Shown piece by piece: positions 50,945-60,378 of a stretch of DNA of 64,000 nt. The position numbers were made by a program, and so were the translations under genes. The stretch comes from Arcobacter sp. CECT 8985 (lineage in GTDB: Bacteria > Campylobacterota > Campylobacteria > Campylobacterales > Arcobacteraceae). The notes under the pieces were generated by a model. It saw only the letters and a program-made list of their open reading frames with translations. It was not told the origin of the DNA and ran no database searches. Where the stretch lies: assembly GCF_004116495.1 (NCBI RefSeq), contig NZ_PDKC01000002.1, forward strand, positions 124,001 through 188,000, written 5' to 3'. The stretch's first letter is position 1. The number at the start of each line of letters is the position of its first letter.

Positions 50945-50973
50945 TAGCATAAGTTTTAACTTATGCTATTATT
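50940..50973. terminator. Bidirectional terminator between fur and feoB
   Basis: A perfect 16-base inverted repeat (AATAATAGCATAAGTT against its complement, TT loop) spans the two convergent stops. It can serve transcripts from both sides. Confidence 0.8.
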
Positions 50974-53069
50974 AATGAAATGACATTATATGTTATATAA
51001 GATAATATCCAAGCAGTACCTGTTGTAAATACAAATAGATATCCAAGATATTTCCATCCTCCAGCTTCTCTTGTAAAGACCATCGATGCAGCTAAACAAG
51101 GTAAATAAATCATTACAAATACTATAAATGCCATTGCAGCAGGGAAAGTTATATTATTTTTGATTTTATCTATTAAGCTTTCTGAATTTTCATCACTTTG
51201 ATCACCTAATCCATATAATATACCTAAAGTAGAAACAACGATCTCTTTTGCAGCAAGTCCAGTTTCAAGTGCAACTGACATTCTCCAATCAAATCCTAAA
51301 GGTGCAAATAATGGTTCTGAAAATTTCCCAATATATCCTAAATATGAGTTTTCTAAGTTATAAAGAGATAATTCATTTTGTAAAGCATTTTTTTCTTCAT
51401 CTGTTGCAGCTAATTCAATTTTTTGATTAAATGATGCTTCAACTTCAGGATGTTTTGGATAATTACTTGCTATCCAAATTAAAAGAGATGCTGCTAAAAT
51501 AAATGTACCCGCTTTTTTTAGATACATCATCGCTTGATTTGATACAGTATGCCAAACTAACTTACTTGAAGGAAGTCTGTATTTAGGCATCTCCATAACA
51601 AAAGGTTCATCTTCACTTTTAAATACTACAATTTTTAATACTTTTGCAGCAATTAAACCTAAAATTGCACCACCTATATATATTAAAAATAAAATATTAC
51701 CAGCGTTTTCTTTACTAAAAAATGCACCTGTAAAAAGTACATATATTGGAAGCCTTGCTCCGCAAGACATAAAACCTATAATAAATAGTGTAAGTAGTCT
51801 ATCTCTTTCATTCTTTAGTGTTCTTGCAGCCATATATGCAGGAACTGAGCATCCAAAACCTGTAACTAAAGGAATAAATGATTTTCCATGAAGTCCAAAT
51901 TTGTGAAAGAAACCATCAAGTAAAAATGCTACTCTACTCATATATCCAGTTGTTTCAAGTAGTGCAATACCAAAAAATAAAATTACAATATTTGGAATAA
52001 ATAAAACAACTGCACCAACACCAGCAATTGCACCATCTGCAATTAAAGATGAGATTTGGTTATCTCCAAGAAGTTCTTTTGTTCCATCAATTAGTTTTGC
52101 AAAAAATGCATCAATCATGTCCATTGGAATATTACCAATATCAAATGTTAATTGAAATAATCCCCACATTAAAAATAGGAAAATTGGCAATCCAAATATT
52201 TTATGAATTAATATTGCATCAATCTTTTCTGTAATTGTTTTTTTTTCTATTTTATCTTGTGTAACTGTTTCTGTTACAATACCTTTTGCAAATGCAAATT
52301 TTGCATCATTAAAAATATCTTCCATATCTTTTGTATCATAATGAATAGATATATGATTAAAAGCTTCATTTAAAATTGGTTGTAGTTTTGTCCATATTGG
52401 TTCTTCATGAAAAAATTTATAAGTTTTTTTATCTTCTCTTAAAAGTTTTATTGCAATTTCTCTATATGAAAAATTTGTATCGTATTTTATTTCATTAAAA
52501 AATTTAACAATATTAGAGATCTCTTCTTCAATAACATTTGAAAAGATAAGTTTAGTAGGAAGTTTTTCATTTTCATATTTATTAACAATTTGCTCAATTA
52601 AATTATCAATTCCTTCTTTATTAGCTGCACTTGTTTTTATGCAAGGCTTACCAATAATTTTACTTAATTGTTTTTCATCTATATTTATTTTCTCTTTTTT
52701 TGCTTCATCATTCATATTTAAAGCAAGAATCATTTTTTTATCAAAAGCTAATAATTCAGATGTAAGATATAGATTTCTTTCTAAGTTTGTAGAGTCAAGT
52801 ACATTTAATATAATGTGATAATCTTCATTTTCCAAAAATTCTTTTGTAACTCTTTCTTCTAATGTATAGTCATTTAATGAATAAGCACCAGGTAAATCAA
52901 CTATTTCAATTCTATAATCTTTATATTTAAATATTACTTCTTCTTTTGCAACTGTAACTCCTGAAAAGTTACCAACTTTTAGTTTTGCATTTGAAATTGA
53001 ATTGATAAGCATACTTTTACCAACATTTGGTTGACCAACGAGGGCAATCTTTATAATTTTTTTATTCAT
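50961..53069 (-). CDS. feoB: Ferrous iron transporter FeoB
   Basis: FeoB imports Fe2+ through the inner membrane. The N-terminal GTPase has G1 GQPNVGKSM (residues 12-20), the G3 DLPGAYSL and G4 LNMNDEAK. Then come a helical spacer and eight or more membrane helices with two Gate-type regions, including GFGCSVPAYMAARTL and SCGARLPIYVLF. Length (702) is normal. Its start overlaps the feoA stop by four bases, so both are translated together under the shared Fur-box promoter. Confidence 0.96.
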   Translation of the reverse strand: MNKKIIKIALVGQPNVGKSMLINSISNAKLKVGNFSGVTVAKEEVIFKYKDYRIEIVDLPGAYSLNDYTLEERVTKEFLENEDYHIILNVLDSTNLERNLYLTSELLAFDKKMILALNMNDEAKKEKINIDEKQLSKIIGKPCIKTSAANKEGIDNLIEQIVNKYENEKLPTKLIFSNVIEEEISNIVKFFNEIKYDTNFSYREIAIKLLREDKKTYKFFHEEPIWTKLQPILNEAFNHISIHYDTKDMEDIFNDAKFAFAKGIVTETVTQDKIEKKTITEKIDAILIHKIFGLPIFLFLMWGLFQLTFDIGNIPMDMIDAFFAKLIDGTKELLGDNQISSLIADGAIAGVGAVVLFIPNIVILFFGIALLETTGYMSRVAFLLDGFFHKFGLHGKSFIPLVTGFGCSVPAYMAARTLKNERDRLLTLFIIGFMSCGARLPIYVLFTGAFFSKENAGNILFLIYIGGAILGLIAAKVLKIVVFKSEDEPFVMEMPKYRLPSSKLVWHTVSNQAMMYLKKAGTFILAASLLIWIASNYPKHPEVEASFNQKIELAATDEEKNALQNELSLYNLENSYLGYIGKFSEPLFAPLGFDWRMSVALETGLAAKEIVVSTLGILYGLGDQSDENSESLIDKIKNNITFPAAMAFIVFVMIYLPCLAASMVFTREAGGWKYLGYLFVFTTGTAWILSYITYNVISLIIA

Positions 53070-53287
53070 TTTGTTACCTCAATCTTATTTGCTTCTGTTA
53101 ATCTTATAGCAATTTTAGTTGTATTTATTCTAACTTCAATTGTATTTTTTGCTAATGTTACTTCTTCTATTATTACTTTTGTATTTTTTGTTAAACCAAA
53201 AGAATAAAATCTATTTTTTAAAGAGCTATCACAATTTAATGCCAATATTGTGGCTTCTTCTCCTTTATTAAGTTCACTTAATCTCAT
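53066..53287 (-). CDS. feoA: Ferrous iron transport protein FeoA
   Basis: FeoA is a small SH3-like cytoplasmic partner of FeoB. The 73-residue product has the family pattern LSELNKGEEATILAL, LKNRFYSFGLTKNTKVI and a terminal AIRLTEANKIEV strand. It starts the minus-strand feoAB operon. Upstream it faces the 53574 operon across a 286-base gap with Fur boxes. That gap shows no other gene. Confidence 0.9.
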   Translation of the reverse strand: MRLSELNKGEEATILALNCDSSLKNRFYSFGLTKNTKVIIEEVTLAKNTIEVRINTTKIAIRLTEANKIEVTK

Positions 53288-53355
53288 AAAAATCCTTTGA
53301 AATATTTAATATTTTTAAAATTATAATAGACTTAAAATTTAAAACTACTTAATAA

Positions 53356-53423
53356 TGATAATAATTTTCAAATAATTTTCAAATTTGATAATAATTCTTA
53401 ATTTATAATGATAATTAATAACA
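53356..53423. promoter_or_regulatory. Fur-box cluster between feoA and the P-type ATPase cluster
   Basis: Three copies resemble TGATAATnATTATCA: 53356-53370 (14 of 15), 53386-53400 (13 of 15) and 53409-53423 (13 of 15). Further half-sites follow at about 53497-53505 and 53553-53561. A TATAAT at 53469-53474 can serve the plus-strand cluster. Both divergent operons are likely repressed by iron-loaded Fur. Confidence 0.75.
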
Positions 53424-53573: not shown

Positions 53574-53888
53574 GTGATTAAAACAGAAGATATTATAAAT
53601 ATTGCAGGGTATTTTACTATTATTGCTCATACTCCAGGAAGATTAAGAGTTAGAGTAAATCCTAAGATTAAAAATGAGAGTGAAAATATATCCATAGAAG
53701 ATATTGAAAATTTACCTTCAAAAATAAATGGTATTAAAAATATAAAAATAAATAAGATTGTTGCATCAGTTACAATTACTTATGATCCACATGTTTTTAA
53801 GCCACAAGTTTGGGAAGATTTAATTAATAAACAAAATTTAGATGAAATTACAGAAATCATAAATAATTTAGCTAAGGAGGTGATGTAG
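53574..53888 (+). CDS. HMA-like protein without CxxC, first gene of the iron cluster
   Basis: A 104-residue ferredoxin-fold protein. It has the turn HTPGRLRVRV near residues 19-28, then a helix and strand ending in VASVTITYDPH, like heavy-metal-associated (HMA_2-type) domains, but no metal-binding CxxC. The P-type ATPase at 55571 starts with a related HETPNRLRYKY region, which suggests the two domains share an origin or interact. GTG start with AAAGGA. It heads an operon of tightly spaced genes. Confidence 0.78.
   Translation: MIKTEDIINIAGYFTIIAHTPGRLRVRVNPKIKNESENISIEDIENLPSKINGIKNIKINKIVASVTITYDPHVFKPQVWEDLINKQNLDEITEIINNLAKEVM
53874..53884 (+). promoter_or_regulatory. Full-length Shine-Dalgarno before the ferritin-like gene
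   Basis: AAGGAGGTGAT complements the usual 16S rRNA 3' end over its whole length. It lies at the end of the HMA-like gene, just before the GTG at 53888, fixing that start and implying strong translation. Confidence 0.75.
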
Positions 53889-54565
53889 TGGTTAACCTTG
53901 ATGAAAATATACTTCTTTCTCAAAGAGTTGATTTAAATAGTGAACAAGCTGTTGAATCACAAGTATTAAGAATAGCTGTATATGATGAGTTTAAAGCTTA
54001 TGAAACATATTCAAAAATAATTGAAAAGTTTGGGGCAATTAAGCCTTTTATAAATATAAAAGAAGCAGAGGCTGTTCATTATAGTGCATTAATGCCTTTA
54101 TTACAAAAGTATAATGTTGAAGTTCCAATAAATGATTGGCAAGAAAAAATAAAAGTACCAAATTCATATATTGAGTGTTGTGAACTTGGTGTTGCAAGTG
54201 AAATAAATAATATTGCAATGTATGATAATTTGATTGCAAATACAAAGCAACCAGATATTAAAGATATACTATTTAAGTTACAAGCAGCATCATATAACAA
54301 TCATCTTCCTGCATTTAGAAAGTGTGTATTAAATCATTATAATGGATTAAATCAATCAACAAGTTTAAATAGTGTTGAAGATATGATGAGTAAAGCAAAT
54401 GAATATCAAATGCTTTTAGAAGATGTTGCTTCTGGAAATATAGATCAAAATAAAATAACTGAAATTTTAAGTAAGTTAAATATCTCTATGATAAGTGGAG
54501 CAGGTCTTGGTGCAGCATTAGTTGCTTTTTTAAATAATTATTCACAAGAAAATAACAAGGAGTAA
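53888..54565 (+). CDS. Ferritin-like (DUF2202-type) protein with C-terminal hydrophobic tail
   Basis: A four-helix-bundle type protein of 225 residues. Likely di-iron ligands are the Glu in YDEFKAYETY, EAEAVHYSAL (Glu and His), the Glu in ASEINNIAMYD and the His in NNHLPAF. The end has a hydrophobic, Gly/Ala-rich helix (ISGAGLGAALVAFL) that could insert in a membrane, which is unusual for free ferritin-like enzymes. The GTG start is preceded by an excellent ribosome site. It may oxidise or hold iron on a membrane surface. Confidence 0.75.
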   Translation: MVNLDENILLSQRVDLNSEQAVESQVLRIAVYDEFKAYETYSKIIEKFGAIKPFINIKEAEAVHYSALMPLLQKYNVEVPINDWQEKIKVPNSYIECCELGVASEINNIAMYDNLIANTKQPDIKDILFKLQAASYNNHLPAFRKCVLNHYNGLNQSTSLNSVEDMMSKANEYQMLLEDVASGNIDQNKITEILSKLNISMISGAGLGAALVAFLNNYSQENNKE

Positions 54566-54568
54566 GTT

Positions 54569-54859
54569 ATGGCATTACCATTTGTAGCAGGTCTTGCAAT
54601 CGGGGCAGGGGCAGTTTTAGCATTTAGAAAAAGTTCTTTTATCAAAGAAAAAACACAAGAAGTAATTGATAGATCAAAAGAGTACACATGCTCTAAAGTA
54701 GAACAAGGTAAAGAAGTAGTATCAGATGTAAAAGATACTATTGATGCAACAAAAGAGTGCATAAAAGAGAAAAAACAAGCAAAAAAATTACAAGCTAAAG
54801 AACAAGAAAATATAGAAAAAATTGAGGCAAAGGATGAAAAAGAATGCAAAGCGGAGTAA
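54569..54859 (+). CDS. Small membrane protein with YtxH-like helix and Lys/Glu-rich tail
   Basis: 96 residues. The N-terminal helix FVAGLAIGAGAVLAF is a glycine-zipper type membrane segment. The rest is a charged coiled coil with two or three Cys (TCSK, KECIKEK, KECKAE). YtxH-like or gas-vesicle-like small proteins have the same layout. It follows the ferritin-like gene by three bases and overlaps the next gene by 16 bases. Role unknown; by context it may shape or coat a membrane. Confidence 0.72.
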   Translation: MALPFVAGLAIGAGAVLAFRKSSFIKEKTQEVIDRSKEYTCSKVEQGKEVVSDVKDTIDATKECIKEKKQAKKLQAKEQENIEKIEAKDEKECKAE

Positions 54860-55215
54860 TTAATACAGGTACACCAAGAAATGTTATAGGACATATAGTA
54901 AGTGGAGCAGTGGCAAGTGCAGTTGTATCAGGAACAATTAATTATAAAAAAGCAAAAGAGCAAAAAATTTCTTCAAGAGATGCGATTAAAGATACAGTTA
55001 AAAAGACAACACAAGGTGCAATTGCAACAGGTACAGCAATATCTACAGCTAATTACTTAGGACAACAAGGTGGCTTTTTAAAAGCGTTAACTGCACTTAG
55101 TGTAGGAATGGCAGGAATTTATGCTGTTGAAGTAATTGATGAAAAGCTAGATGAAAAATATGAAGAAGTAGATAATCAAAATGAAGAGATCTTAATACAA
55201 GAGGATAATTTATAA
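54844..55215 (+). CDS. Small membrane protein with two Gly/Ala-rich helices
   Basis: 123 residues. The first hydrophobic region is near 15-32 (IGHIVSGAVASAVVSGTI), a second near 57-72 (GAIATGTAISTANYLG) and a third near 78-96 (FLKALTALSVGMAGIYAV); an acidic tail follows. Small-residue packing suggests close helix association in a membrane. The ATG lies inside the previous gene, with AAAGGA nine bases upstream. The family is not recognised. Confidence 0.72.
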   Translation: MQSGVINTGTPRNVIGHIVSGAVASAVVSGTINYKKAKEQKISSRDAIKDTVKKTTQGAIATGTAISTANYLGQQGGFLKALTALSVGMAGIYAVEVIDEKLDEKYEEVDNQNEEILIQEDNL

Positions 55216-55559
55216 TGAATGAAAATAACAATCAAAATATGTATGATATGAATATAGAGAATACAAGAGCAGCTCAAAACCAAAATGTAAATGTAAATCA
55301 AAATCCATATGTTAATCAGCCTACAAATACAATTAATCCAATGCAACAAGTGCAAGTACAAGACGGCTTTAATACAGGAGATTTTGTAAAAGGAGCATTA
55401 ATTGGTGCAGCAGTTACGTATCTTCTTACAAATAAAGGTGCTCAAGATAATATAATGAAAGCAGTATCAAAAGGAACTCAACTTTTTCAAGCCGGTATGG
55501 AAGAGATGAAAGAGAGAATGGAAGATGCTAAAGCTGCAATGGAAGCAAATCAAGAATAA
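55215..55559 (+). CDS. Small Asn/Gln-rich membrane protein
   Basis: 114 residues. The first 50 are rich in Asn and Gln (for example NQNVNVNQNPY). A single membrane helix DFVKGALIGAAVTYLL follows, then an amphipathic Met/Glu/Lys helix (GMEEMKERMEDAKAAME). The ATG overlaps the previous TAA by one base. The helix with KGALIGAA recalls YtxH and some organelle-membrane proteins. Function unknown. Confidence 0.72.
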   Translation: MNENNNQNMYDMNIENTRAAQNQNVNVNQNPYVNQPTNTINPMQQVQVQDGFNTGDFVKGALIGAAVTYLLTNKGAQDNIMKAVSKGTQLFQAGMEEMKERMEDAKAAMEANQE

Positions 55560-55570
55560 AAGATATTATA

Positions 55571-57676
55571 ATGAATAAATATTTTAAAAAAGTACATGAA
55601 ACACCTAATAGATTAAGATATAAATACTTCTTATTAAAAGAAGATTATATTGATGAAAATATTTTGAAATCATATTTACAAAATATTGAAGGTGTTTCAG
55701 ATGTAAGAATAAATAAAAAAGCATTTAGTGTTATTTTTTATATACAAGAAGATATAAAAGAAAATATTGAAAATGTTTTAAAAAAACTTACATTGGATGA
55801 TTTATTATCTACTAATTGTGAAGAAAATGCAGTTTGTGTAAATTGCGTAAGTGATGAAAAACCAAGTTTATCAGGTGTTGTAAGAGCAAGTAGTGCATTA
55901 GTAGCAGAAAGATTCATAAGAAATAATCTAGCTAAAGCTACAGTTACAACAGCAGCTGCTATTCCTATGTTAACACAAGGAACAAAAGAACTTTTTAGTG
56001 AAGGTTTAACTTCAAAAGTTTTAGAAAGTGCAGCTGTTGGGATTTCTGTATATAGAAAAGATTATCTTGCAGCAAATTCTACAAATGCAATGTTAGAGTT
56101 AGGTGAGTATATAGAAGAGACGACTGTACATAAAAGTGATGATTTATTAAAAGAGTTATCAAAACCTAATGTAAAAGAAGCTTGGATTGAAAAGAAAGAA
56201 AATGAAAAAACAGTTGAAGTTTTAGTAGCTACAGAAGATATTGAAGTTGGAGATATTGTAATTGTTTCTGCGGGAAGTACAATTCCTGTTGATGGTCATA
56301 TTATGCATGGAGATGCAAGTGTAAATCAAGTTTCAATGACAGGAGAAGCTGAACCTGTAAAGAAACAAAGAGGTGATAGAGTTATCTCTGGAACTGTTTT
56401 AGAAGAGGGTAGATTAAAAATATGGGCTGAACATGTTGGAGCAAATACTGCAACACAAAGAATAAAACATTATATAGAAAGCTCATTAAATGAAAAATCA
56501 TCAGTACAATTAAAAGCAACAAAATTAGCTGATAAATTAGTTCCTGTTACACTTGGATTGGCAAGTATATCTTATTTGTTTACTAAAGATTTTGAAAGAG
56601 TGGCTTCGATTTTACAAGCAGATTACTCTTGTGCTTTAAAACTTGCAACTCCTGTGGCTTTTAAATCAACAATTTCAAAAGCTGGACATGAAGGAATTAT
56701 GATTAAGGGTGCAAAATCTATTGAAGCATTATCAAATGTTGATACATTTATTTTTGATAAAACAGGAACTTTAACGCAAGGGGATTTAGAAGTTATTGAT
56801 GTTTGTTCATTTGATGATGAATGGACAGCAGAAGAATTATTAAACCTTACAGCAAGTACAGAAGAACACTATTTCCATCCAGTAGCAGAAGCTGTAGTTA
56901 AAGCTGCTAAACAAAGAGGCTTTGTACATATGCACCATGAAGAAGTAGAATTTATTGTTGCACATGGTGTAAAAACTGAAGTTGAAGGTAAATCTGTAGT
57001 AATTGGAAGTAGACATTTTTTAGAAGATGATGAAAAAATAGATTTTTCTGTTCATAAAGATAAAATTGAAAAAAGTATAGATGAAGGTAAAACTTTATTA
57101 TATATTGGTTTTGATGGTACACTTTTAGGGACAATTGCATTAGCAGATAAAATAAGAGATAACTCAAAATCAGCAATTGAAAAATTGAGACAATTAGGTG
57201 TAAAACATACTGTTATGCTTACAGGTGATGTTGATAAGAAAGCCAAAATGGTAGCTCAAGAATTAGGAATTGATGAGGTTTATTCAGAACTTTTACCTAC
57301 GCATAAGGCTTCAATAGTTAAAAAAATGATTGATGAAGGTAGAAACGTTGCTTTTGTTGGTGATGGGATAAATGATGCCCCTGCATTAATTTCTGCAAAT
57401 GTAGGAATTTCAATGAGTAAAGGTGCTGATATTGCAAAGGCAACTGCAGATGTGAGTTTATTAAAAGATGATATTGATGCGGTAGTTTATTCAAAAGAAC
57501 TTGCAAATAAAACTATGAATTTGATAAATACAAACTTTAAAGCAACAGTTGGAATTAATTCAGCAATTTTAGGTGGAGCAACATTAGGAGCATTTTCTCC
57601 TATTGTAACAGCAGTATTACATAATGGTACTACTATTGGTTTACTTTTAAACTCTATAAGAGGTGTGAAAAAATAG
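55571..57676 (+). CDS. P1B-type metal ATPase with SCALKLATP motif (FezB-like candidate)
   Basis: The transporter core is intact: TGEAEP near residue 257, DKTGTLTQGD near 396, the HP motif FHPVAEA near 435, and GDGINDAPAL near 597. The metal-path motif in the fourth core helix is SCALKLATP near 353, without the Pro and second Cys of the usual CPC. The N-terminus is not a CxxC HMA domain but a HETPNRLRYKY-type fold, with CVNC near residue 88. The first pair of membrane helices is weak. P1B-6 ATPases, which include FezB of ferrosomes, are atypical in this same region. The likely job is moving iron across an internal or inner membrane. It is Fur-box linked. Confidence 0.85.
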   Translation: MNKYFKKVHETPNRLRYKYFLLKEDYIDENILKSYLQNIEGVSDVRINKKAFSVIFYIQEDIKENIENVLKKLTLDDLLSTNCEENAVCVNCVSDEKPSLSGVVRASSALVAERFIRNNLAKATVTTAAAIPMLTQGTKELFSEGLTSKVLESAAVGISVYRKDYLAANSTNAMLELGEYIEETTVHKSDDLLKELSKPNVKEAWIEKKENEKTVEVLVATEDIEVGDIVIVSAGSTIPVDGHIMHGDASVNQVSMTGEAEPVKKQRGDRVISGTVLEEGRLKIWAEHVGANTATQRIKHYIESSLNEKSSVQLKATKLADKLVPVTLGLASISYLFTKDFERVASILQADYSCALKLATPVAFKSTISKAGHEGIMIKGAKSIEALSNVDTFIFDKTGTLTQGDLEVIDVCSFDDEWTAEELLNLTASTEEHYFHPVAEAVVKAAKQRGFVHMHHEEVEFIVAHGVKTEVEGKSVVIGSRHFLEDDEKIDFSVHKDKIEKSIDEGKTLLYIGFDGTLLGTIALADKIRDNSKSAIEKLRQLGVKHTVMLTGDVDKKAKMVAQELGIDEVYSELLPTHKASIVKKMIDEGRNVAFVGDGINDAPALISANVGISMSKGADIAKATADVSLLKDDIDAVVYSKELANKTMNLINTNFKATVGINSAILGGATLGAFSPIVTAVLHNGTTIGLLLNSIRGVKK

Positions 57677-57692
57677 CTTATAAATATTATTA

Positions 57693-57707
57693 TGATAATT
57701 AGTATCA
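57693..57707. promoter_or_regulatory. Fur box upstream of the 39- and 69-residue genes
   Basis: TGATAATTAGTATCA matches the 7-1-7 Fur consensus at 14 of 15 positions. It lies just after the P-type ATPase gene, making the two following small genes a separate iron-controlled unit. Confidence 0.72.
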
Positions 57708-57767
57708 GTTTTATTTAAACTTAACATAGTTATAATATTGATATACATTATCATAAGGAGTATTTAT

Positions 57768-57887
57768 ATGCCTATTCTTTTACCATTAGCTACTGCATTA
57801 ACAGCAGCTTTAACTTATGAGACTTTTAAAGGTACAAAAAAGACTATTGAAAGAAGACAAAGAAGGAAAAAAAGGAATGAAAGTTGA
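57768..57887 (+). CDS. 39-residue membrane peptide with a strongly basic tail
   Basis: ATG 57768 has the ribosome site ATAAGGAG. The frame ends at TGA 57887. A hydrophobic start (PILLPLATALTAALTY) is followed by the tail KKTIERRQRRKKR. The next gene starts inside its last codons. Its Fur box, strong ribosome site and overlap with the following membrane gene make it likely to be real despite the small size. Confidence 0.62.
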   Translation: MPILLPLATALTAALTYETFKGTKKTIERRQRRKKRNES

Positions 57888-58086
57888 TGCAGAAGTAAAA
57901 AAAGAGGTTGCTAAAATTGGAATGACAGCAACTTTGGGAGCTACAGTTGTTACTTCAATGTTTATGAAAAATAAAATTGCAAAGAAAACACATATAGTAG
58001 CAGGTGCTGCATTTTGTGGTTTTGCACTATGGCATCATATGCTCTATCAACCTGACAAAAATAAAAAGAAACTGAAACAAAAATAA
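57877..58086 (+). CDS. 69-residue membrane protein, end of the iron cluster
   Basis: A start at ATG 57877 (AGAAGG upstream) gives 69 residues. There is a charged beginning, a hydrophobic segment IGMTATLGATVVTSMF, KNKIAKKTH, and a second hydrophobic segment IVAGAAFCGFALWHHMLY with a His pair. It overlaps the 39-residue gene by 11 bases. The longer frame from 57817 is improbable because it lies in the preceding gene. Paired with the basic peptide it could form a two-part membrane element. Confidence 0.66.
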   Translation: MKVDAEVKKEVAKIGMTATLGATVVTSMFMKNKIAKKTHIVAGAAFCGFALWHHMLYQPDKNKKKLKQK

Positions 58087-58169: not shown

Positions 58170-58619
58170 ATGGCAAATAATGAAGAAGTAATCGAAGAAC
58201 TTAAAAAAATCGTAAAACAAAAAGGTTTGAAATATACTGAACAAAGAGAAATTGTGCTTGATATTCTTATTAATGCAGAAGATCACTTAAGTGCAGAAGA
58301 AGTATATAATCAAATTAAAGAAAAGCATCCAGATTCAAATATTGGTATTGCTACTGTGTATAGAGCCCTAGGTTTTTTGGAAGAGGTTGATTTAATTGCA
58401 TCAATTGCTTTTGGAACTGAAGGTAAAAAATATGAAAGTAATGCTAAGTCTCATCATGATCATTTAATTTGTACAAATTGCGGAAAAATTGTAGAGTTTA
58501 TTGATGATGAAATTGAAAAAAGACAAGAAAAAATAGCTAAGAAAAATAAATTTAAAATTACTAGTCACTCAATGCAATTATATGGTGTTTGTGGTGATTG
58601 TCAAGAAAAATCAAAATAG
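58170..58619 (+). CDS. fur: Fur-family transcription regulator (second copy)
   Basis: A winged-helix domain (KYTEQREIVLDILINAEDHLSAEEVY, then GIATVYRALGFLEE) and a metal-binding domain with HHDHLICTNCGKIVEF and CGDCQ are typical of Fur. The length is 149. It closes the plus-strand part of the iron island and has its own upstream gap of 83 bases. It is more standard in sequence than the regulator at 50498, so I favour it as the classical Fur, with moderate certainty. A terminator hairpin follows. Confidence 0.9.
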   Translation: MANNEEVIEELKKIVKQKGLKYTEQREIVLDILINAEDHLSAEEVYNQIKEKHPDSNIGIATVYRALGFLEEVDLIASIAFGTEGKKYESNAKSHHDHLICTNCGKIVEFIDDEIEKRQEKIAKKNKFKITSHSMQLYGVCGDCQEKSK

Positions 58620-58628
58620 TATTACTAA

Positions 58629-58657
58629 TAAATATTAAGGATAAACCTTAATATTTA
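58629..58657. terminator. Bidirectional terminator between fur and flavodoxin
   Basis: TAAATATTAAGG and its exact complement CCTTAATATTTA form a 12-base stem with loop ATAAA, covering the short gap between two convergent genes. Confidence 0.75.
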
Positions 58658-59158
58658 TAAAATCTCACTTTTAATATCTTCAATCCAGTTTTCAATTCTT
58701 TCATCAGTTAAATCATCTTGATTATCTTCATCAATAACTAAACCAACAAATTTGTCATCTTTAACAGCAGTTGATTCTTCAAAGTCATATCCAGAAGTAG
58801 AAGTAAATCCAATTACATTTGCACCTTGTTCTACTACTTGTTCATACATTGTCCCAAGTGAATTTACAAAAGTATCATCATATCCATCTTGATCTCCAAG
58901 TGCAACTAATGCAACTGTTTTATTTGAAAAATCTATTTGTTTAAAATCTTCCCAACTTTCATCCCAATCATCTTGTAAATCGCCATCTCCCCAAGTAGAA
59001 GTAGCTAAAATTACTTTATCAAAGTTATTAATTTTTTCAATATCTTTTTGATTGTTAGTTATATTAAATGAATCAGTGATACCTAATTTATCTGCAATTT
59101 TTTCTGCAACTTCTTCAGTATTCCCTGTACTACTTGCATAAAATATAGCCGTTGACAT
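58655..59158 (-). CDS. Flavodoxin (first of three)
   Basis: Flavodoxin carries FMN and replaces ferredoxin in low-iron conditions. The phosphate loop is SSTGNTEEVAEKI, the Trp-bearing loop is STWGDGDLQDDWDESW, and the Tyr-side loop has GDQDGYDDTF. Length (167) fits long-chain flavodoxin. It is one of three minus-strand paralogues and ends in a terminator hairpin. Which paralogue is the main electron carrier is not decided by sequence. Confidence 0.93.
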   Translation of the reverse strand: MSTAIFYASSTGNTEEVAEKIADKLGITDSFNITNNQKDIEKINNFDKVILATSTWGDGDLQDDWDESWEDFKQIDFSNKTVALVALGDQDGYDDTFVNSLGTMYEQVVEQGANVIGFTSTSGYDFEESTAVKDDKFVGLVIDEDNQDDLTDERIENWIEDIKSEIL

Positions 59159-59249
59159 ATATCAATCCTTTATTTCTTTTTTGTAATTTTAGTTAAATAG
59201 GATAAATATTGTCTTATTTGAAAGACTTATCAATTTTGTTAATAAAAAT

Positions 59250-59759
59250 TTAAGATGACTCATGTTCTATGTCGTCTTTGATTGCTTCTACCCATTGTTT
59301 AATTCTTTCATCAGTTAATTGTGGTTGATTTATTTCATCTATAACAAGCCCTACAAATTTATTATTTATTACTGCTTTTGAATCTTTGAAATCATAACTA
59401 TCAATATTTGTAAAACCTACAATGATAGCTCCACTTTTTACTAAGTCATCATAAACATATTTCATCGCATCTGCAAATTCATTTGGATATTTAACTTGAT
59501 CGCCTAACCCAAATATTGCAACTGTCTTATCTTTGAAATTTGTTTTTTTAAAATCACTCCAGATTTCTTGCCAATCTTGTTGCATTTGGCCATTATTTGC
59601 TGTTGGTACACCAAATATTATATGCTTAAAATCATTTATATATTCACTACCTGTAACAGCAATATCAAAAATTCGAATATCACCAAATTCTTTTGAAATC
59701 TTTTTTGCAACATCTTCTCCATGTTTGCATTTACTAGTGTAAAATATTGCAGTTGTCAT
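59250..59759 (-). CDS. Flavodoxin-like protein with altered FMN loops (second of three)
   Basis: The fold is flavodoxin-like over its whole 169 residues, including GLGDQVKYPNEF and a KFVGLVIDEINQP ending shared with its neighbours. But the phosphate loop SSTGNTE is replaced by TSKCKHGE, and the Trp loop TPTWGEGDL by VPTANNGQM, which removes the aromatic stacking residue. FMN binding is therefore doubtful or different. It may be a specialised partner protein or a diverging copy. It is separated from its neighbours by about 90 and 120 bases. Confidence 0.85.
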   Translation of the reverse strand: MTTAIFYTSKCKHGEDVAKKISKEFGDIRIFDIAVTGSEYINDFKHIIFGVPTANNGQMQQDWQEIWSDFKKTNFKDKTVAIFGLGDQVKYPNEFADAMKYVYDDLVKSGAIIVGFTNIDSYDFKDSKAVINNKFVGLVIDEINQPQLTDERIKQWVEAIKDDIEHESS

Positions 59760-59854
59760 TGTAAGCTCCTTATAAATTTTTATAATATATATTAAGATAA
59801 TAAAATTTAAAATTAGTATAAATTAAAATGTTAGTAGGGTAAAGTGCGTAGATT

Positions 59855-59880
59855 AACAAGCCTAAGTTCAGGCTTGTTTT
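59855..59880 (+). terminator. Intrinsic terminator on the + strand, next to a minus-strand gene
   Basis: AACAAGCCT, loop AAGTTC and AGGCTTGTT are followed by a run of T on the + strand (59875-59880). The neighbouring genes are both on the minus strand, so this terminator has no known + strand transcript. It can also act weakly as the end of the third flavodoxin gene. Confidence 0.6.
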
Positions 59881-60378
59881 TTATATTATATCTTTTTTTA
59901 TTTGTGCTATCCAGTTTTCTATTCTTTGTTCTGTTAAGTCATCTTGGTTATCTTCATCAAGAACAAGTCCTACAAACTTATCATCTTTTTGTGCTTTAGA
60001 ATATTCAAATTCATAATCTTCAATATCAGTAAATCCAGTAACTTTTGCACCTGCTTTTACTACTTGTTCATACATTATTCCAAGTGCATCACAAAATTCA
60101 TCGCCATAGCTTTCTTGATCTCCTAAACCAAATAATGCGATTGTTTTTCCTTTTAAATCAAAGTTACAAAACTTATCCCATATTTCGTCCCAATCATCTT
60201 GCAAATCCCCTTCTCCCCAAGTAGGAGTGCCCAAAATTAATTTATCATAATTATTTATATTCTCTAAATTATTATCATATATATTAAAAATGTCTATATT
60301 ATCGAGTTTATTTGCTATTGTATTTGCTACTTCTTCAGTATTCCCTGTGCTACTAGCATAAAAAAGTGCAGTTGCCAT
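59881..60378 (-). CDS. Flavodoxin (third of three)
   Basis: 165 residues with complete loops: SSTGNTEEVANTI for the phosphate, PTWGEGDLQDDWDEIW with the FMN-stacking Trp, and GDQESYGDEF for the Tyr side. It is closer to the flavodoxin at 58655 than to the divergent middle copy, consistent with a duplication. It is separated by 13 bases from the upstream hypothetical gene (60392-61156), probably in one transcript. Confidence 0.93.
   Translation of the reverse strand: MATALFYASSTGNTEEVANTIANKLDNIDIFNIYDNNLENINNYDKLILGTPTWGEGDLQDDWDEIWDKFCNFDLKGKTIALFGLGDQESYGDEFCDALGIMYEQVVKAGAKVTGFTDIEDYEFEYSKAQKDDKFVGLVLDEDNQDDLTEQRIENWIAQIKKDII

Follow-up and report, generated by a model that had tools for sequence, protein, structure and literature searches.

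The eight-gene operon at positions 53574-58086 of the 64,000-nt stretch of Arcobacter sp. CECT 8985 DNA analysed here (from here: the window) is very probably a fez-type operon, i.e. an operon for ferrosomes. The first-pass annotation had proposed an iron compartment at this place, and the proposal is supported by the clade and motif of the ATPase, by shared partner genes and by small proteins with a weak resemblance to FezC or a distant one to MamC. The analysis provided gene content, conservation, clade, motifs and the predicted fold of the ferritin-like protein B, and from these we infer granule formation, iron cargo, topology, an organelle and electron transfer. An open reading frame check found all eight genes (A to H) present at the following places and on the following strands; the neighbouring features are given as well:

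A, 53574-53888, plus strand: 104 aa, GTG start; HMA_2-domain protein with the motif TPGRLRVRV; PF19991 38 bits (cut-off 30)
B, 53888-54565, plus strand: 225 aa; ferritin-like, predicted membrane-tethered; DUF2202 23.8 bits (cut-off 22)
C, 54569-54859, plus strand: 96 aa; N-terminal Gly-rich membrane segment, then a charged helix; homologous to E
D, 54844-55215, plus strand: 123 aa; two membrane segments; distant MamC homologue (NF038051 25.7 bits)
E, 55215-55559, plus strand: 114 aa; Asn/Pro-rich N-terminus, Gly-rich membrane segment, amphipathic YtxH-like helix
F, 55571-57676, plus strand: 701 aa; FezB-type P1B ATPase; TIGR01525 493.6 bits
G, 57768-57887, plus strand: 39 aa; single membrane segment; homologues in 34 of 61 loci
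H, 57877-58086, plus strand: 69 aa; two-helix hairpin; candidate FezC-type heme b hairpin; DUF4405 E 0.01
feoB (702 aa) and feoA (73 aa), 50961-53287, minus strand: Fe(II) import genes, divergent from the operon
Fur-family regulator gene, 58170-58619, plus strand: 149 aa; PF01475 146.9 bits
Two Fur-box-like sites, 53351-53422: 53351 (16/19) and 53404 (15/19), in the feoA-A intergenic region
Two Fur-box-like sites, 57688-57752: 57688 and 57734 (15/19 each), before G-H

Membrane segments were assigned by hydropathy to B (residues 197-217), C, D (two), G and H (two). Three small membrane proteins had been announced ahead of the ATPase; C and D were recognized as such, while E fell just below the threshold, yet the E family has the same Gly-rich segment.

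The FezB type is a P1B ATPase with an arginine-motif HMA-like N-terminus and without a CPC motif. Both features were found in F, which has an HMA_2-like N-terminus with RxR and the sequence DYSCALKLATP where CPC is expected. The replacement of CPC by SCALKLATP, noticed at first reading, is borne out by the family: among the 58 Campylobacterota ATPases taken from fetched loci, none departs from DYSCALK. In the same 58 proteins RxR lies within the first 45 residues and no CxxC occurs in the first 60; the single CxxC of F (CVNC) belongs to the linker after the HMA_2 domain, where only 16 of the 58 homologues have one. A CPC, CPH or SPC motif was present in none of 138 F homologues. In the tree, F and the ATPases of Shewanella, Vibrio, Azospirillum, Methylocystaceae and Chromatiales formed one clade with a support of 100/100. 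Three Cu- or Zn-type paralogues of the same genome lie outside it, as do E. coli CopA and ZntA, CcoI-like ATPases and the SCPC-type neighbours. A grouping with Cu, Zn or Co exporters had been named beforehand as a sign against the proposal; the ATPase did not group with the Cu and Zn pumps sampled, a typical Co-type SPC pump being absent from the tree. Membership of F among the Cu, Zn or Co exporters was rejected on DYSCALKL in place of CPC/CPH/SPC and on its place in the tree away from CopA and ZntA. A P1B system whose cargo is a different metal, be it Cu, Zn, Co or Mn, would agree with the good score of the general P1B model TIGR01525 on F, iron being a putative cargo, but the missing motifs, the separate clade and the linkage to Fur, Feo and ferritin-like genes make it very improbable.

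A quick tree placed the ATPases of Azospirillum and of one Shewanella species (L212) as sister to those of Campylobacterota. Homologues of F were found in a plasmid search in Azospirillum (48%), Cereibacter (42%) and Vibrio (39.5%). In a scan of named genomes the motif region retrieved 427 relatives, the best 80 of which come from Vibrio, Photobacterium, Shewanella, Ferrimonas, Enterobacterales and Chromatiales, mostly Gammaproteobacteria, and from two alphaproteobacteria. Viral contigs scanned with the ATPase motif yielded no relatives. A Priestia megaterium plasmid (L184) carries a small cluster of another kind, in which a P1B ATPase with the membrane motif DFICGIKL is surrounded by three HMA_2 genes. 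In a minority of Campylobacterota (L064, L067, L069, L072, L073, L081, L082, L094, L195, L196, L198, L206) the operon is directly preceded by a further P1B ATPase gene, whose product has about 700-730 aa; the sequences read carry SCPC and group in a clade of their own.

In a search at E <1e-150 the ATPase was found in 135 of 397 Campylobacterota genomes, always in one copy, and a search of the same 397 genomes with B gave matches in 120. The regions around 60 of the B-positive genomes were fetched and read with profiles made from the window's own proteins, and the gene order A-B-C-D-E-F-(G)-H was found in nearly all of them. Another 20 genomes, positive for the ATPase and without a B match in the first search, were fetched and read with the same profiles; eight of them lack B and the others have it. 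Altogether nearly 80 loci, drawn from several families of Campylobacterota, show this order, a recurrence far beyond chance. Three loci (L192, L193, L194) hold reduced clusters with an ATPase of 613-630 aa that lacks the HMA_2 region; B and H are absent there.

Related clusters exist outside the phylum. On an Azospirillum brasilense plasmid (L099) there are six genes, encoding an HMA_2 domain with a hairpin, an HMA protein, C, D, E and F, and one Shewanella species (L212) has the same set, except that E was not picked up by the scan. These two resemble the window's operon in that HMA, C, D, E and F stand in the same order and the ATPase is 48-50% identical; they differ in that the ferritin-like gene is missing and the hairpin, fused to HMA_2, is placed first. 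Clusters of Vibrio, Photobacterium and other Shewanella comprise HMA, a longer E-like protein, D, E and the ATPase. Common to the proteobacterial clusters of the 100/100 ATPase clade are A, D, E and F.

The description of A as an HMA_2 protein without CxxC holds for the whole family: each of 59 A homologues lacks CxxC and has RxR. The gene is adjacent in nearly all loci, and its counterpart is the free-standing HMA protein of the Azospirillum, Vibrio and Shewanella clusters. In the hairpin H, His59, Gly63 and His73 are invariant in all 62 sequences, across both phyla. H and four homologues match DUF4405 weakly and below threshold (E 0.003-0.05). The ferrosome cytochrome FezC belongs with the DUF4405-like heme b proteins (PMC11334425), and H is a candidate hairpin of this type. 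Its proteobacterial counterparts consist of a hairpin with an HMA_2 domain, whereas the HMA_2 domain is missing from H. An additional C-terminal domain was observed on H in L038, L043, L064, L067, L069 and L072; in L064 it is SpoIIAA-like (PF11964).

Among the small membrane proteins, C and E were found to be homologous in a profile-profile comparison (95%), and the position of C directly after B is conserved. Homologues of E in Arcobacter and Azospirillum are annotated as 'YtxH domain-containing', and E directly precedes the ATPase in the clusters. D matched the MamC model NF038051 over 77 positions with 25.7 bits (E 1e-5), and 37 of 47 D homologues matched it at E <0.01, the best at 6e-10. 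The model found nothing in 14 control genomes; when it was run on 21 relatives of the window it gave eight matches, and seven of these, including the window's own, were short open reading frames of the size of D. Membership of D in the MamC equivalog was rejected, the cut-off being 100 bits, and a magnetosome cluster was considered and rejected as well. By these profile matches D is a distant homologue of MamC. A match of the small proteins to an unrelated family had been named beforehand as a sign against the iron-compartment proposal; the matches obtained were to families related to iron organelles, namely HMA_2 for A, a weak one to DUF4405 for H and a distant one to the magnetosome protein MamC for D, and the proposal stands.

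B had been described as ferritin-like with a hydrophobic tail, and we can confirm this, with a predicted four-helix bundle at residues 22-154 followed by a Gly-rich hydrophobic segment at residues 197-217. At the level of sequence profiles B matched MJ0754 (E 5.8e-10). An AlphaFold model reached a pLDDT >90 over the bundle, with the tail poorly predicted, and a fold search with this model agreed with the profile: the solved structure ranked first was MJ0754, followed by Rv2844, a thioferritin, bacterioferritins and a Dps-like protein. B belongs to DUF2202 (PF09968) by score (23.8 vs. 22 bits), and 26 of 29 homologues match this family at E 0.01. B has its predicted fold in common with the MJ0754/DUF2202 family, as well as E34, E61, H64, E105 and H139 at the iron site; the C-terminal membrane tail is an addition of B. 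The di-iron ligand set is incomplete, with Y136 at the expected helix-4 Glu of ExxH, a position at which Glu is not among the commonest residues of the family. Conservation is 66/69 for E34, 44/69 for E61, 47/69 for H64, 68/69 for E105 and 48/69 for H139, and about one third of the homologues have lost E61/H64. From these counts iron binding is likely in many B homologues, while catalysis is uncertain. With 23.5 bits for NF058679 (cut-off 90), B is not an encapsulin-associated ferritin (EncB) by this model; an encapsulin system was considered and rejected. Apart from B, the genome contains one Dps-like protein and one rubrerythrin as PF00210 proteins, and no further PF00210 ferritin.

The ferritin-like gene had been suggested as a possible addition to the known gene set, a suggestion that is strengthened by its presence in 127 of the 135 Campylobacterota clusters and by its occurrence within or next to gammaproteobacterial and alphaproteobacterial ones. 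The count of 127/135 is free of a selection for B since the genomes were searched via the ATPase; in loci that were not fetched B was read by eye from coordinates, about 1.3-1.7 kb before the ATPase. The eight clusters without B are L192-L194, L197, L199, L204, L207 and L210. It is conceivable that B is a co-transcribed passenger working apart from the compartment, a sub-question that is compatible with the fez reading. These eight clusters are in line with it, as is the absence of B from Azospirillum, Vibrio, the Shewanella species L212 and most gammaproteobacterial clusters. However, B is near-constant in Campylobacterota, and in two Chromatiales clusters a B homologue with a similar tail is located between E and F; further homologues lie inside or close to gamma- and alphaproteobacterial clusters elsewhere. 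Moreover, there is a resemblance between the tail and the membrane segments of C and E: in profile alignments the tail matched the segment of C (94%) and that of E (73%) but not that of H (1%), although these are single-pair comparisons of Gly-rich segments and are to be read with care. We therefore regard a passenger role as unlikely.

feoAB is divergent from the operon, as annotated. Eleven sites in the 64 kb reach at least 15/19 against the E. coli Fur consensus, four of which lie at this operon. Fur boxes had been proposed at 53356-53423 and 57693-57707; the best matches are the sites at 53351, 53404, 57688 and 57734. The assignment of the first two is less certain: they share their gap with the divergent feoA and are nearer to it, and their target may be feoAB, A-F, or both. 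Strong as the sites are in the window, the Fur-box signal ahead of the operon is modest across loci, with a mean best score of 12.9 compared to 12.0 in shuffled sequences. Of 58 loci, 32 have a Fur-family gene within 7 kb of the ATPase, and 9 have FeoB. For the window's gene at 58170-58619 the Helicobacter Fur model gave the best score, yet below the cut-off of that model. Three tandem flavodoxin-like genes stand beside the island on the minus strand (window positions 58655-60378), and some relatives have homologues of them close to the operon. The ATPase is followed, mostly before H, by a gene of 475-487 aa in L081, L085, L086, L088, L089, L200, L201, L202 and L211; two of its sequences, read by eye, resemble a sodium/alanine symporter.

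The nearby feoAB and Fur genes suit storage or efflux alike. Metal export is the usual role of P1B ATPases, and a system known here from its sequence alone could also handle iron at the plasma membrane, with the ATPase exporting Fe(II) and the small proteins as accessory subunits, without any vesicle. Against this, the dedicated proteins C, D, E and G and the tailed B, one of them MamC-like, exceed what an exporter needs, storage is the better fit for a candidate redox hairpin together with a ferritin-like protein, and in R. palustris a set of six fez genes makes ferrosomes (PMC12016538). We regard such a vesicle-free system as quite unlikely.

Compared by description, the operon resembles the fez clusters of D. 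magneticus, R. palustris (RPA2333-2338) and C. difficile (fezAB, CD630_05910-05920) in its FezB-type ATPase without CPC, the candidate FezC-like hairpin with its weak DUF4405 match, HMA_2, small membrane proteins and a putative link to Fur. By the same comparison it differs in the near-constant B, in a candidate FezC that is a bare hairpin with HMA_2 on a separate gene, and in the extra 39-aa protein G. The presumed orthology to the characterised FezB and FezC rests on motif, partner genes and named genera. Counting against the fez reading are the weakness of the DUF4405 match, the missing HMA_2 domain of H, the modest Fur-box signal across loci and the many B proteins in which the iron site is incomplete.

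If the operon is of the fez type, F would take iron, probably as Fe(II), out of the cytosol and pump it into a vesicle that originates from the inner membrane, and C, D, E and G would coat, shape or segregate the vesicle membrane. H may carry electrons across this membrane and so change the redox state of the iron; a heme in the two-His hairpin would need pairing with a second copy of H. A would act as a soluble HMA_2 adaptor with the arginine motif. The ferritin-like domain of B would be held on the membrane by the C-terminal tail and, as this tail is its sole hydrophobic segment, B should face the cytosol. There it would bind iron at the surface of the organelle, and possibly oxidise it where the ligands are intact.

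In the literature searched no report of ferrosome machinery in Campylobacterota was found, nor a description of the ferritin-like member or of the MamC link, either of which may be contained in the main ferrosome papers outside that search. The results would place ferrosome machinery in about one third of the sampled species of a phylum with many animal-associated bacteria. They also name an extra, testable part of the ferrosome, a ferritin-like protein on the organelle membrane, and through the sequence link to MamC a shared ancestry, or shared parts, of two iron organelles becomes testable. We tentatively suggest, at somewhat less than even chances, that ferrosomes and magnetosomes share a homologous membrane protein (D/MamC) and that in Campylobacterota one of the core parts of the ferrosome is a ferritin-like protein, tail-anchored and recruited to the surface of the organelle. 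If this is true, the ferritin fold and the membrane compartment, the two ways in which a cell stores iron, would be joined in one operon.
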